This document shows, piece after piece, positions 1,592-39,137 of a DNA stretch of 64,000 nucleotides; positions within the stretch are counted from its first letter, which is position 1; every line of letters starts with the position of its first letter. The translations under genes were made by a program, and so were the position numbers. Source of the DNA: Granulibacter bethesdensis CGDNIH1 (GTDB lineage: Bacteria > Pseudomonadota > Alphaproteobacteria > Acetobacterales > Acetobacteraceae); assembly GCF_000014285.2 (NCBI RefSeq), contig NC_008343.2, positions 1-64,000 on the forward strand. The letters run 5' to 3'. The notes below the pieces were generated by a model. It worked only from the letters and a program-made list of their open reading frames with translations. It was not told where the DNA came from and did no database searches.

Positions 1592-2623
1592 TCAGATTGT
1601 TCTGATCAGGTTCAACAATTCGGCCACATGCTCCGGCGGTGTCTGCGGTACAATGCCGTGGCCGAGATTGAAGATATGCGGATGTCCCGCCATAGCCTGA
1701 CGAATCGAGGATACTTCCCGCCTCATGGCCTCTCCACCCGCGCGTAAAGCCAGGGGATCGAGATTGCCTTGCAGCGCTATTTCCGCAGGCACCATTTTGC
1801 GCGCCATGGCCGGATCAACGGAGGTATCCATTCCAACCGCATTGACCCCGGTTTCTGAAGCATAATTCTGTAGCAATGTGCCAGCCAACCTTGGAAAACC
1901 GATCACCGGCACCGATGGATGACGCGCTTTCAGCGCTGCAGTGATCTGGCGTGCCGGTGCAGTTACCCAACGGGCAAAACTGAGCGGAGACAGTAAACCG
2001 GCCCAGCTGTCGAACAGCATCAGCACTTCCGCCCCTGCTTCGACCTGTGCTGACAGATAGGTGATGGTTGCTTCTGTCAGGCGGGCGATCAGACGGTCAA
2101 AAGCCTCGGGATTTGTGTAGGCGAAATGCCGGGTGCGGGGGAATTCCTTGGCGCCCCCTCCATCGACCATGTAGCAGGAGACGGTAAACGGAGCGCCGGC
2201 AAACCCGATCAGCGTCGTTTCTGGATGAAGCTGCTGAAGCTGTTCGCGAACCCGTGTGACGGTTTCCATAATCGGAGCAATCCGCGGGATCAGCTGGCTG
2301 AAATCGAGCCGGTCGATATCCGCTTCTTCAAGTTTCGGCAGTACGGGGCCTTCACCCTCGGCAAAATGCAGCCCGTAGCCCAAAGCCCATGGCAACATCA
2401 GAATATCGCTGAACAGAATGGCTGCATCCATTCCGAAACGGCGAATAGGTTGCAGGGTTACTTCCGCTGCCCATTCGGGATGGGTGGCAAGACCGAGGAA
2501 GCTGCCTGCTTTTGCTCTGACCTCCCGATATTCGGGCAGATACCGACCTGCCTGACGCATCAGCCAGACGGGAGGAACGGGGAGTGCTTCACCACGGAGC
2601 ACGCGCAGGATCGGTTTGTTCAT
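1592..2623 (-). CDS. hemE: Uroporphyrinogen decarboxylase
   Basis: HemE removes four carboxyl groups from uroporphyrinogen III to give coproporphyrinogen III in haem synthesis, in the cytosol. The 343-residue protein has the family length and both signatures: PPVWLMRQAGRYLPEYR near residues 18-34, containing the substrate-binding arginines, and GFAGAPFTVSCYMVDGG in the middle. DSWAGLLSP and NLGHGIVPQTPPEHV near the C-terminus are also typical. The gene reads away from the probable replication origin lying just upstream of its start. hemE next to oriC is a well-known arrangement in Caulobacter, Rickettsia and other alphaproteobacteria. Confidence 0.97.
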   Translation of the reverse strand: MNKPILRVLRGEALPVPPVWLMRQAGRYLPEYREVRAKAGSFLGLATHPEWAAEVTLQPIRRFGMDAAILFSDILMLPWALGYGLHFAEGEGPVLPKLEEADIDRLDFSQLIPRIAPIMETVTRVREQLQQLHPETTLIGFAGAPFTVSCYMVDGGGAKEFPRTRHFAYTNPEAFDRLIARLTEATITYLSAQVEAGAEVLMLFDSWAGLLSPLSFARWVTAPARQITAALKARHPSVPVIGFPRLAGTLLQNYASETGVNAVGMDTSVDPAMARKMVPAEIALQGNLDPLALRAGGEAMRREVSSIRQAMAGHPHIFNLGHGIVPQTPPEHVAELLNLIRTI

Positions 2624-2998
2624 AAGACCTGCTTAAAAAGGATAAAGAAGAAAAGGAAAAGGGAGGGGAATAGATAGAACCCTGTGGATAACGTGGTACC
2701 CGGAATCCGGATTTTACTACGTACTTTATCCACACCGAAAGATGCAGATAAGTAACTGATAGATAAAGTGAAACAGCATTTATCCAGAAAACTTTTCACA
2801 TGGGTGTACGATTCATGCCCAGTACCCGTGATTCGTGAGTTTGTCCCCTTGTTTCGGTACGCATGGTTTGCGACCTTGGTGGAAAGAGGGGTTATCCCCG
2901 GTACTACGGTAATTCACTAAGGTGATTCAGGACCGCGCCTTCCGGAAGTCAGCACATTGCTGAAGGATGGGCGGGAGACAGGAAAATGGATTCGGGTC
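2624..2998. other. Probable chromosomal replication origin (oriC)
   Basis: This 375-base gap between hemE and the PPDK regulator holds no gene. It contains two perfect DnaA boxes TTATCCACA in opposite orientation, at 2683-2691 (minus) and 2726-2734 (plus). A one-mismatch box TTATCCAGA lies at 2780-2788 and a weaker TTATCCCCG at 2892-2900. Four GANTC sites (about 2810, 2830, 2924 and 2989), the CcrM methylation target, crowd its right half. A purine-rich AAAGG/GATAAAG stretch lies at 2637-2670. Alphaproteobacterial origins characteristically lie beside hemE, and parAB-rsmG-mnmG follow about 7 kb away. Boxes and context are seen; origin function is inferred. Confidence 0.75.
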
Positions 2999-3850
2999 AT
3001 GACCGCACATCGCATGAATCTGCATCTGGTCTCCGATGCCACCGGAGAAACGCTCAATTCCATAGCGCGGGCCACTGTCTCCCAGTTCGAGCATGCCCAG
3101 ATCATCTATCATCGCTGGTCCCTGATCCGAACCCGTTTTCAGCTTCATCGTGTCCTTGAGGGGATCGAGGCTGAACCCGGTCCTGTCCTGTCAACGCTGA
3201 TAGAGCCGGGATTGCGCAGTGAGCTGGAGAATTTCTGTTCCCGGATCGGGATTGCGGTGGTGCATGTGCTGGATCCGGTTCTGTCCCTGCTGCAACACCA
3301 TATCGGGGAACAGGCAATAGCCCGACCCGGTCGTCAGTATGTGCTGGATGCCGATTATTTTCGCCGGATCGATGCCATGCATTTCGTGTTGGCGCATGAT
3401 GATGGCCAGGCTCAGGTCGGGATCAATGAGGCCGATCTGTGTCTGGTCGGGGTATCACGCTCCTCTAAAACGCCGACCTCGTTCTATCTTGCCAATCGTG
3501 GCGTCAAGGCAGCCAATATTCCGCTTGTTCCCGGCTTGCCGGAACCGCCCGGTCTGGAAGCGCCCATTGTACCCGTGATTGGCCTGACCATCGATCCGGA
3601 AGCCCTGATCGAAATTCGCCGCCACCGGCTCAAACTGATCGGTGGCCAGCCGAATGTGCAGCAGAATACCGCTTATGTTGATCTGGAGTCCGTCAAGGCC
3701 GAACTGATCTGGGCGCGGCGTCTCTGTGCGCGGAAAGGCTGGCCGGTGATTGATGTCACCAGACGTTCGATCGAGGAAACGGCGGCCACTGTGCTGCAAC
3801 TGGTGGAGGCATGGCATGAGCGGCGGCGGTCCTTGCCTCCCGGTGGTTAG
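2999..3850 (+). CDS. Pyruvate,phosphate dikinase regulatory protein (kinase-pyrophosphorylase, DUF299)
   Basis: Family members are bifunctional: they inactivate pyruvate,phosphate dikinase (or PEP synthase) by ADP-dependent phosphorylation of a threonine and reactivate it by Pi-dependent pyrophosphate release. The sequence shows the N-terminal [17 protein letters not shown] motif and the P-loop-like [18 protein letters not shown] in the second half. The start at 2999 ([10 protein letters not shown]) is chosen over 2957 because conservation begins there; 3014 is also possible. It is the first gene to the right of the probable origin, followed 44 bases later by maf. Control of PEP supply would matter in a cell that also carries PEP carboxylase and a serine cycle, but its target enzyme is not in the window. 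Confidence 0.88.
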
Positions 3851-7872: not shown

Positions 7873-8928
7873 ATGAAATTTGATGCACGTCAGGCGGAAG
7901 CATTTTTGCGTCAGCCTGATCAGGCTGTGCGGGCTGTGCTGCTTTACGGGGATGATCATGGTTTGGTCCGTGAGCGCGGGACCAGTCTGACACGGCTGGT
8001 AGCAGGGCAGATTGATGATCCTTTTCGTGTTATCGAACTGGCCGCGGAACAGGCGGCCGATCTTCCCAATGAAATGGCGGGTCTGTCCCTGACGGGCGGC
8101 CGTCGTGTCATCAGAATCAGGGAAGCGGCCGACATTTTCGCTGCCCCTCTGCAGGCCGGTCTGGAGAGGCAGGGGGAAGCGCTGGTCATTCTGGAAGCAG
8201 GGACATTGACGCCACGCTCCAAGCTTCGTGTGCTGGCCGAGAAAATGGCCAGTGCAGCCTCCATTGCCTGTTATCCCGATGAAGGTAGAAGCCTGTCCCA
8301 GACTATTCAGGATTCTCTGGCCCGGGATCGTGTTTCCATTGAGGCTGATGCGCTGAAATGGCTCTGCGATCATCTGGGGGCTGATCGTGCCCTGACGCGG
8401 CGTGAAATCGACAAGCTTGCCCTGTATGTCGGTCAGGATGGAACCGCGACAATAGAGGCAGCACATGCCTGTATTGGCGACCTCGCCGGATTGTCATTGG
8501 AAGATGCACTGTATGCGTCTGTCATCGGTGACATTTCAGGCGCTGAACGCGCCCTGTCACTGGCTCTGTCGGAGGGTACGACCTCGATTGCCGTGGTCAG
8601 AATGGCGCTTCAGCATATGCAGCGGCTTCGCAAGCTGCGTGCGGTGATGCAGGAAAACGGAACAAGCGCGGCTGAGGCTGTCAGGCAGGCAAAGCCTCCG
8701 GTTTTCTTCAAACGGGTACCCGCTTTTACGAAGGCTCTCACGCTCTGGCGGGATGAGATGCTGGCCGCGATCTGCGACATGCTTTGGCAGGCCGAGAAAG
8801 CCTGTAAGCAGAGCGGTGCCCCTGATGAGACCATCTGTCGTCAGGCGGTCATGAGTATCGCTCTGCGGGCACGTCAGGCTGCTGCCAGAGGGGTTTTTAA
8901 CAAGGGGTTTAACGGGTCAGCAGGGTGA
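7873..8928 (+). CDS. holA: DNA polymerase III delta subunit
   Basis: HolA is the clamp-loader subunit that opens the beta sliding clamp. The 351-residue protein begins MKFDARQAEAFLRQPDQAVRAVLLYGDDHGLVRERG, the usual delta N-terminus with the degenerate P-loop region. It continues with LTRREIDKLALYVG and the C-terminal helical collar typical of alphaproteobacterial HolA. It follows lptE by 12 bases and is probably co-transcribed with it. Its last 20 bases overlap the 3' end of the convergent parB gene. Confidence 0.93.
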   Translation: MKFDARQAEAFLRQPDQAVRAVLLYGDDHGLVRERGTSLTRLVAGQIDDPFRVIELAAEQAADLPNEMAGLSLTGGRRVIRIREAADIFAAPLQAGLERQGEALVILEAGTLTPRSKLRVLAEKMASAASIACYPDEGRSLSQTIQDSLARDRVSIEADALKWLCDHLGADRALTRREIDKLALYVGQDGTATIEAAHACIGDLAGLSLEDALYASVIGDISGAERALSLALSEGTTSIAVVRMALQHMQRLRKLRAVMQENGTSAAEAVRQAKPPVFFKRVPAFTKALTLWRDEMLAAICDMLWQAEKACKQSGAPDETICRQAVMSIALRARQAAARGVFNKGFNGSAG

Positions 8929-9775
8929 TCAGGCCATCCAATTGATCAAGTGATTTGTAGCGAATGCGTATATCCCCGCTCTGACCATCATAGGTGACGG
9001 TGACTTTCAGCCCCAGATGATTGCTGAGGTCACGTTCCAGAACAGCAATTTCGGGATCCCGACGGGCGGCTCTTTCCTGCGCCGTGACAGGGGGAGCGTT
9101 CTTGCGTGCAACCAGTTGCTCTGTTTGTCGCACATTAAGGCCTTTTGCCAGCACCGTCAGCATGGCTGTTGCCGGATCGGCATGCGACAGCAAGGCTCTG
9201 GCATGGCCTGCGCTGAGAGCACCTTTTTTGACTTCGTGCAGGACGGGGGAAGGTAAATTAAGCAGCCGAAGTGTATTGGCGATATGGCTGCGGGATTTGC
9301 CGACCGCATCGCCCAGTTTTTCCTGTGTCAGGCCGAATTCCTCGGACAGGCGGCGATAGCCTTCTGCTTCCTCCACGGCATTGAGATCCTGCCTTTGCAG
9401 ATTCTCGACCAGGGCCGCGGCCATGGCATCGCTGTCGGACAGGGCACGCACCAGCACAGGCACTTCATGCAGCCCGGCTGCCTGAGCGGCCCGCCAGCGG
9501 CGTTCACCGGCGATGATCTGGTAACGTCCGGCAAGATCGGGATCGGGTCTGGCCAGCAAGGGTTGCAGGATGCCTCTGGCACGAACGGATTCCGTCAACT
9601 CGGCCAAGGCATCCGGTTCAATGGTTCCTCTTGGTTGAAAGGGGCTTGGGGCAAGCAGTTCCACTGCCAGCATGGCGATATCAGGATGACGGCGCTCCGT
9701 ATCCTGTGTCGGTAGATCATCGCCCAATAAAGCTGCCAATCCACGGCCCAGCCGCGTCTGGGGGGATTTTGTCAT
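8909..9775 (-). CDS. parB: Chromosome partitioning protein ParB
   Basis: ParB is a CTPase clamp that loads at parS and spreads along DNA to direct origin segregation with ParA. The 288-residue product starts with RLGRGLAALLGDD, the conserved N-terminal ParA-contacting segment. It has the CTP-binding/GERRWRAA region (IIAGERRWRAAQAAGL, about residues 108-123) and ENLQRQDLNAVEEAEGYRRL. A helix-turn-helix (LTQEKLGDAVGKSRSHIANTLRLL) and a C-terminal dimer domain follow. It overlaps parA by 4 bases (ATGA) and is the last gene of the mnmE-mnmG-rsmG-parA-parB run. Probable targets are the parS sites at 11.24, 11.30, 15.09 and 39.12 kb. Confidence 0.97.
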   Translation of the reverse strand: MTKSPQTRLGRGLAALLGDDLPTQDTERRHPDIAMLAVELLAPSPFQPRGTIEPDALAELTESVRARGILQPLLARPDPDLAGRYQIIAGERRWRAAQAAGLHEVPVLVRALSDSDAMAAALVENLQRQDLNAVEEAEGYRRLSEEFGLTQEKLGDAVGKSRSHIANTLRLLNLPSPVLHEVKKGALSAGHARALLSHADPATAMLTVLAKGLNVRQTEQLVARKNAPPVTAQERAARRDPEIAVLERDLSNHLGLKVTVTYDGQSGDIRIRYKSLDQLDGLITLLTR

Positions 9776-10686
9776 ACCGCTTTCGTCCCTGCCTTGCGTT
9801 CACGCTTCAGTAACTCGTCTGCCAGCTGAACATAAGCCTGCGCGCCGGAGGATTTACTGTCGTAGAGCAGCACCGGCTTGCCATGGCTCGGCGCTTCAGA
9901 GAGGCGAATATTGCGCGGAATCACAGTGTCATAGACTTTGGCACCGAAAAATCCTCTTGCATCCGCCGCGACCAGTTCTGACAGGTTGTTACGCCGATCG
10001 AACATCGTCAGCACAATCCCTTCCAGCTCCAGAGCCGGATTGAGCGCCCGTCGCACAGCCTGAACCGTACGATTAAGTTGGGTTACGCCCTCCAGAGCGA
10101 AGAACTCGCATTGCAGGGGTACCAGCACCGAATCTGCTGCGACAAGGGCATTCAATGTGAGCAGGCCAAGGCTGGGCGGGCAGTCAATCAACACGTGATC
10201 GAAAGAAAGTTCAGGGGTTTGGTCAGCATTTTTTAGAGCATCCAGCGCCTCTCTCAACCTGTACTCACGGCGGTTCTGGGCGACCAGCTCCACTTCAGTG
10301 CCGGCCAGATCAATTTCTGCCACGATCAGAAACAGGTTGGGAACAATGCTTGTGCGTATGACATCAGCCGCTTTGTGGCTACCCATCAGCACGGCATAGG
10401 AACCATGGCCACGTTGATTGCGGGGGATGCCGAGACCGGTGGACGCATTGCCCTGAGAGTCGAGGTCGATCAACAGTACCCGCTCTCCGGTTTCAGCGAG
10501 CGCGGTGGCCAGATTGATCGCCGTCGTGGTTTTGCCGACTCCCCCTTTCTGGTTGGCAATAGCAAGAATTTTCGGACGTGTTTTGCTGTTGGTTATCACC
10601 GGAGAGGAAGGACTCTCGGTTGATTCGGAGACCTGCCCGGAGGGTTTTTTCAATGCCCGAAAAGGGCTTTTCGGTTTCTCAGACAC
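9772..10686 (-). CDS. parA: Chromosome partitioning ATPase ParA
   Basis: ParA is a deviant Walker-type ATPase that forms a nucleoid-bound gradient to move ParB-parS complexes. The 304-residue sequence has the deviant Walker A KGGVGKTT at residues 47-54, the DLDSQGNASTGLG segment, and Walker B-type VLIDCPPSLGLLTLNALVAAD. The first 35 residues are a Ser/Pro/Lys-rich tail of low complexity before the conserved core; a later start is possible but no better ATG is evident. The 3' end overlaps parB by 4 bases and the 5' end overlaps rsmG by 8 bases, indicating tight translational coupling. Confidence 0.97.
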   Translation of the reverse strand: MSEKPKSPFRALKKPSGQVSESTESPSSPVITNSKTRPKILAIANQKGGVGKTTTAINLATALAETGERVLLIDLDSQGNASTGLGIPRNQRGHGSYAVLMGSHKAADVIRTSIVPNLFLIVAEIDLAGTEVELVAQNRREYRLREALDALKNADQTPELSFDHVLIDCPPSLGLLTLNALVAADSVLVPLQCEFFALEGVTQLNRTVQAVRRALNPALELEGIVLTMFDRRNNLSELVAADARGFFGAKVYDTVIPRNIRLSEAPSHGKPVLLYDSKSSGAQAYVQLADELLKRERKAGTKAV

Positions 10687-11320
10687 GAGAAATTTCGTCT
10701 ATCCGTAAAATGGAAGCCTCGGGATGAGTGCGGCTTGGGCTTAGTTGTACGCGCATGTGCCACTCTGTCGCGGCCTCCGTCAATTCTTGCTCTGCTGTTT
10801 TTCCCTTCATGAAAAGGGCAACGCCGTTTTTGCTTAGCAAGCGTAAGGCATAACCAAGCAGCACGTTCAGGGGAGCAAGCGCACGGGCGGTCAGAACCGG
10901 GGCGGGAGCAATATTACATTGTTCGATCCGGCAGGCATGAACGGTGACATTGGACTCTGTGGCTCTGGCGGCTTCCCGCAGAAAAGCCGCCTTGCGCTGG
11001 TCTGCTTCCACCAGATGGGTTTCCCGGCCAGTAGCAATAGCCAGAACCAGGCCGGGCAATCCACCGCCGGAGCCAATGTCGATCAGAGGTCCAGGTAATG
11101 GTTCCAGCAGAGGCAGCAGTTGGAGAGAATCCAAGATGTGGCGATCACGGATATGCTCCACATCATTCCGGCTGACCAGGTTAACCGTGCGGGTCCAGCG
11201 TGTCAGCAGCGATTCATACAGGGCGAGTTTTTCCCCTGTTTCACGTGAAACACCCGATCCGGCCGGGAGGAGAGTACGGATAATCTGACAGTTAATAAGG
11301 GGTTGTTTCACGTGAAACAC
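10679..11320 (-). CDS. rsmG: 16S rRNA (guanine527-N7)-methyltransferase RsmG
   Basis: RsmG (GidB) methylates N7 of G527 in 16S rRNA using S-adenosylmethionine. The 213-residue protein shows LVSRNDVEHIRDRHILDSL and the SAM-binding loop LIDIGSGGGLPGLVLAI, followed by LVEADQRKAAFLREAARAT, all classic for the family. The start is a GTG at 11320 (or 11311) lying inside a parS palindrome and overlapping the mnmG stop. A second parS inside the gene encodes the residues VSRET. Loss of RsmG is known to give low-level streptomycin resistance in other bacteria. Confidence 0.95.
   Translation of the reverse strand: MFHVKQPLINCQIIRTLLPAGSGVSRETGEKLALYESLLTRWTRTVNLVSRNDVEHIRDRHILDSLQLLPLLEPLPGPLIDIGSGGGLPGLVLAIATGRETHLVEADQRKAAFLREAARATESNVTVHACRIEQCNIAPAPVLTARALAPLNVLLGYALRLLSKNGVALFMKGKTAEQELTEAATEWHMRVQLSPSRTHPEASILRIDEISRV
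11237..11252. promoter_or_regulatory. parS site inside rsmG
   Basis: Perfect 16-bp palindrome TGTTTCACGTGAAACA, identical to the consensus ParB binding site. In the rsmG reading frame it encodes the conserved Val-Ser-Arg-Glu-Thr stretch. Confidence 0.95.
11304..11319. promoter_or_regulatory. parS site at the mnmG stop / rsmG start
   Basis: A second perfect TGTTTCACGTGAAACA. The mnmG stop codon TGA (minus strand, 11308-11310) lies inside it, and the rsmG start codon is formed at its edge, so one 16-bp segment serves two reading frames and ParB loading. Confidence 0.95.
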
Positions 11321-15092: not shown

Positions 15093-15108
15093 TGTTTCAC
15101 GTGAAACA
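15093..15108. promoter_or_regulatory. parS site upstream of the ferredoxin gene
   Basis: Perfect TGTTTCACGTGAAACA in the intergenic region between the divergent ferredoxin gene and the DUF255 gene. It is the third parS of the origin-proximal cluster and the only one outside a coding sequence. Confidence 0.93.
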
Positions 15109-39121: not shown

Positions 39122-39137
39122 TGCTTCACGTGAAACA
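39122..39137. promoter_or_regulatory. Distal parS-like site upstream of the acyltransferase gene
   Basis: TGCTTCACGTGAAACA, one mismatch from the parS consensus, with the essential CACGTG core intact. It lies 24-28 kb from the main parS cluster, between the hotdog gene and the acyltransferase start at 39084. Confidence 0.75.

Follow-up and report, generated by a model that had tools for sequence, protein, structure and literature searches.

We propose, with a probability of about 0.96, that the intergenic gap at positions 2624-2998 is the chromosomal origin of replication, oriC, of Granulibacter. The window, that is the whole stretch of DNA analysed here, comprises bases 1-64000 of a chromosome of 2,708,434 bp assembled as one contig. 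The gap is 375 bp long (GC 0.46, i.e. 54% AT) and separates two divergent genes, both recognised by profile matches: hemE and a gene of the Kinase-PPPase family, also named DUF299 or COG1806, for which both ATG 2999 and ATG 3014 are candidate starts in a reading frame open from 2957. The original prediction considered oriC the best explanation of this region, and a switch of GC skew, the flanking gene pair and a conserved arrangement of DnaA boxes all support it; the function itself is inferred. The features of the gap and its flanks are the following:

1592..2623, minus strand: hemE, uroporphyrinogen decarboxylase (PF01208, E 2.5e-116), left flank
2636..2670: purine-rich A/G tract by hemE, candidate DNA-unwinding element
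2683-2691, minus strand: DnaA box A, perfect, TTATCCACA
2695..2700: GGTACC element beside box A
2703, 2810, 2830, 2924 and 2989: five GANTC (CcrM-type) sites, spanning 2703..2993
2726-2734, plus strand: DnaA box B, perfect, TTATCCACA, inverted relative to box A and 43 bp from it
2743-2751, minus strand: weak DnaA box with two mismatches, TTATCTGCA, overlapping the IHF-like site
2749-2761, minus strand: IHF-like site, one match to the pattern WATCAN5WTR, TATCAGTTACTTA
2780-2788, plus strand: DnaA box C, one mismatch, TTATCCAGA (aligned consensus TTaTCCCCA)
2841-2849, plus strand: weak box position, TTGTCCCCT in this genome, TTATCCCCG in the aligned consensus of relatives
2892-2900, plus strand: weak, W-box-like DnaA box with two mismatches, TTATCCCCG
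2999..3850, plus strand: Kinase-PPPase / DUF299 / COG1806 gene (PF03618, E 1.8e-85), right flank

The type of origin to which the gap would belong is already known, as this site is used by many related bacteria. According to the comparison of origins in PMC1914354, hemE and COG1806 flank both the experimentally mapped origin of Caulobacter and the ori of Rickettsia, in agreement with the earlier statement that known alphaproteobacterial origins adjoin hemE, and Ori-Finder is described as using hemE as an established indicator gene (PMC2275245). Here too, the boxes lie between hemE and the DUF299 gene.

GC skew was computed on a sample of the genome that combined the window with 40 stretches, each of 20 kb (44 pieces, 864 kb). 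It was positive in 23 of the 24 pieces with midpoints up to 1,328,001, the exception being a value of -0.0023 at 1,196,001, and negative in all 20 pieces from 1,394,001 to the chromosome end. The sampled cumulative curve reached its maximum at about 1.33 Mb, opposite the origin, the halfway point from the gap being at about 1.357 Mb. When the last 40 kb and the first 64 kb of the contig were read base by base, the cumulative minima fell at base 353 for GC skew and at base 196 for keto skew, both to the left of box A and 2.3-2.5 kb from the DnaA boxes. Within 3 kb on either side of the contig start the curve runs between about -950 and -1,023 and, because it is so flat there, the minimum agrees with the gap at kilobase resolution only. 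The test set in advance, a skew minimum by the gap, came out as predicted in the sampled sequence, the switch being no more than about 2.5 kb from the gap.

In many bacteria dnaA neighbours oriC, and the origin might be expected there also in this chromosome, with the boxes beside hemE being a cluster that titrates DnaA or has a regulatory role. An example is the genome paper of Acetobacter pasteurianus 386B, where oriC is placed near the dnaA-coding region with a citation of Ori-Finder (PMC3751514). However, the sole Bac_DnaA match of the genome, at 183,500-183,988, is 181 kb from the gap and lies in uniformly positive skew, the pieces on its two sides (midpoints 140,001 and 206,001) being both positive, so that the alternative named beforehand as refuting, a skew minimum at dnaA (183.5 kb), did not occur. 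Moreover, no DnaA box with up to one mismatch was found in the 3,489 bp of the dnaA locus, and the perfect box nearest to dnaA is at 152,575. The proximity of dnaA to ori is also described as not conserved in Rhodospirillales, as a review puts it (PMC8116508). On the positive skew around dnaA and the lack of boxes with up to one mismatch in its locus we rejected an origin at dnaA, which we regard as very improbable.

DnaA can also act as a transcription factor, and the promoters of both divergent genes must sit in the gap; its boxes could then be DnaA-controlled promoter elements of hemE and DUF299 rather than parts of an origin. This would leave unexplained the skew switch, the cluster of parS sites and the correspondence with the origin mapped in Caulobacter, and as an account that does away with the origin it has hardly any chance of being correct. 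A double role of the gap boxes, in origin function and promoter control, is possible. If oriC is indeed in the hemE-DUF299 gap, the start of replication has been located for a chromosome whose dnaA sits 181 kb away.

The two perfect boxes on opposite strands announced by the original prediction were found as boxes A and B, as was the one-mismatch box (2780-2788); in place of the single weaker box mentioned there, two were found (2743-2751 and 2892-2900), the set from perfect to two-mismatch boxes spanning 218 bp. Counted over the window, boxes are no more frequent than by chance (8 against 7.4 expected, one mismatch being allowed), and the non-random feature is their clustering rather than their number: 2 of the 10 perfect boxes of the whole genome are in the gap, 43 bp apart, and the gap has the top score of all 250-bp segments for boxes with up to one mismatch, unequalled in the 864 kb sampled. 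An intergenic cluster of DnaA boxes, rare elsewhere, is present between the two genes. The GANTC sites had been counted as four, while there are five in 2624-2998; five per 375 bp occur in 6 of 2,290 tiles of the genome, a density that is uncommon yet not unique. GANTC density was rejected as an origin mark, because equal clusters are present elsewhere in the genome.

To evaluate conservation, loci were collected around the best 30 matches of the Kinase-PPPase protein, which is matched in 120 of the 150 genomes of the family, and around the top 80 among 371 named places obtained with HemE. The pair hemE and DUF299 was found together in 87 of the 110 loci, a set including the window itself. These gave 76 distinct gaps, of which one of 1,238 bp was dropped, leaving 75, and 70 gaps under 420 bp were aligned. 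Since the best matches were kept, close relatives dominate this set and, related sequences not being independent, the following values are to be read as counts and not as probabilities. Boxes with no more than one mismatch occur in 65 of the 75 gaps and are absent from the other 10, with 132 such boxes overall against about 4.1 expected from shuffles. Perfect boxes are lacking in 42 gaps, single in 25 and double in 8, while base shuffles give an expectation of 0.1 box overall. A counterpart of box A, on the minus strand, with up to one mismatch and within the first 200 nt, occurs in 44 of the 75 gaps. In 37 of these 44, box B (up to two mismatches) follows at 42-46 bp, an arrangement obtained in 45 of 7,500 shuffled trials. 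The plus strand carries the short motif TTATCCCC, which matches the box at 2892-2900, at some place in the gap in 48 of the 75 cases, and the minus strand in no case; the motif is similar to the W-box of Caulobacter, given as TCCCCA in PMC4285127. The origin layout between hemE and DUF299, with its fixed inverted box pair, would thus span this bacterial family.

Skew was also inspected in a one-contig relative (G041), where the hemE-DUF299 pair is at 1,605,121-1,607,344. All 8 stretches from 520,001 to 1,590,001 have negative skew and 8 of 9 from 1,610,001 on are positive, as are, weakly, the 3 before 520,001; the sign changes between midpoints 1,590,001 and 1,610,001. The local minimum at 1,595,087 is about 11 kb off the gene pair, in a genome whose skew is weak.

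We compared the gap with two known origins. Cori of Caulobacter crescentus, as described in PMC1914354 and PMC4285127, likewise extends from hemE to DUF299/COG1806 over about 400 bp and contains two strong DnaA boxes, weak ones and an IHF site, corresponding here to an IHF-like pattern only. Its strong boxes are TGATCCACA, whereas those of the Granulibacter gap are TTATCCACA, and five CtrA sites of the form TTAA-N7-TTAA are reported for Cori (PMC1914354), in contrast to none in the Granulibacter gap, either strict or relaxed (TTWW). The absence of CtrA consensus sites is the main difference from the Caulobacter origin. The ori of Rickettsia prowazekii, according to the same source, has the same hemE/COG1806 flanks at 384 bp; it differs by an AT content of 82.55%, against 54% in Granulibacter, and by its reported CtrA sites (PMC1914354). 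Among relatives, 74 of the 75 gaps are also devoid of TTAA-N7-TTAA. CtrA control through a consensus site was rejected for the gap on this count, and the lack of such sites suggests that initiation may be controlled differently from Caulobacter. It does not remove the gap from the Cori type, for which a CtrA site is not strictly defining, as hemE origins without CtrA sites are among those listed in PMC1914354.

The strong inverted pair, the weak boxes in the same direction and the IHF-like site would fit an assembly of DnaA with DNA bending as in Caulobacter. We infer that DnaA binds the inverted strong boxes A and B, whose distance of 43 bp is about four helical turns, that IHF may help by bending the DNA between boxes B and C, and that DnaA could next extend onto the weaker boxes at 2780, 2841 and 2892, all in the same direction. 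Opening would take place in the purine-rich tract that separates box A from hemE, and the helicase would be loaded there. This side is proposed for opening on account of that tract, which is A-rich and recurs in the 70-gap alignment of relatives. AT content is 58-64% in 50-bp segments starting at 2624-2644, and segments of this size define two AT-rich stretches (58-68%), 2624-2693 and about 2704-2823. The pattern WATCAN5WTR occurs on the minus strand, as here, in 14 of the 75 gaps of relatives and on the plus strand in none, about 1.6 being expected. A CTGAT block that looked conserved by eye in the alignment was not borne out by exact matching, CACTGA being present on the plus strand of 6 of the 75 gaps, and is better read as a putative part of the IHF-like site.

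The basal unwinding system described in PMC8287927 consists of a DnaA box, a GC spacer and DnaA-trios, three or more of which would be contiguous beside the box. Read in the orientation of the box, box A has a GGG/GGCC run next to it and CTA/CTAT triplets beyond, as in that system, but runs of trios are only weakly enriched in relatives and poor in the window: beside box A, CTA is weakly enriched (49 versus 27.2), and two CTA in a row are found in 4 of 44 gaps, with 0.7 expected. A trio element is thus retained as a mere possibility.

Concerning the timing of initiation, it may depend on methylation by CcrM. The genome encodes a GcrA match and a RAMA-domain match, a protein of CcrM type, which make GANTC methylation plausible, and in the gaps of relatives GANTC is found 216 times against about 90 in shuffles. 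In the window GANTC is depleted (139 sites, 285 expected from shuffles), yet dense in the origin gap.

The separation of new origins could be ensured by the nearby parABS sites, through which they would be moved apart:

8909-9775, minus strand: parB
9772-10686, minus strand: parA
11237..11252: parS, perfect 16-mer
11304..11319: parS, perfect 16-mer
15093..15108: parS, perfect 16-mer

The parS cluster had been placed 8-12 kb away, and the perfect 16-mers at 11237, 11304 and 15093 are at roughly that distance from the gap. With up to two mismatches, five parS sites exist genome-wide, all three perfect ones within 12.5 kb of the gap. Sites with one mismatch are present farther from the origin, at 39122-39137 of the window and at 246311-246326 of the contig.

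The six GTAC located within 209 bp (2696-2904) form the densest cluster among 1,208 GTAC in 864 kb. Of the 44 gaps of relatives in which box A is well preserved, 25 have GTAC no more than 13 nt from it. From this cluster and this recurrence one could imagine that a regulator reading GTAC beside box A has replaced CtrA control at the origin in this bacterial family, a reading that we consider unlikely; the recurring element by box A is nevertheless a testable lead.

Finally, we evaluated hemE genes without an adjoining DUF299. A box within 600 bp upstream was present in 2 of 22 such named loci, against 5 of 374 controls from the same loci, a 23rd locus having been left out for too little sequence. 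Because of this low count, the presence of boxes tracks the hemE-DUF299 junction and not hemE by itself, and hemE alone was rejected as an origin mark. The 22 named HemE loci (among L082-L151) include several of Rhodopila, and in the 20 of them that have no box in this interval origin and hemE may have become separated. In 30 of the 150 genomes DUF299 has no match; six of these, picked by hand and inspected by eye with no control, all have boxes less than 500 bp upstream of hemE. One of the six, a small relative (G061), carries 14 perfect DnaA boxes upstream of hemE (L156, 1004-1272).
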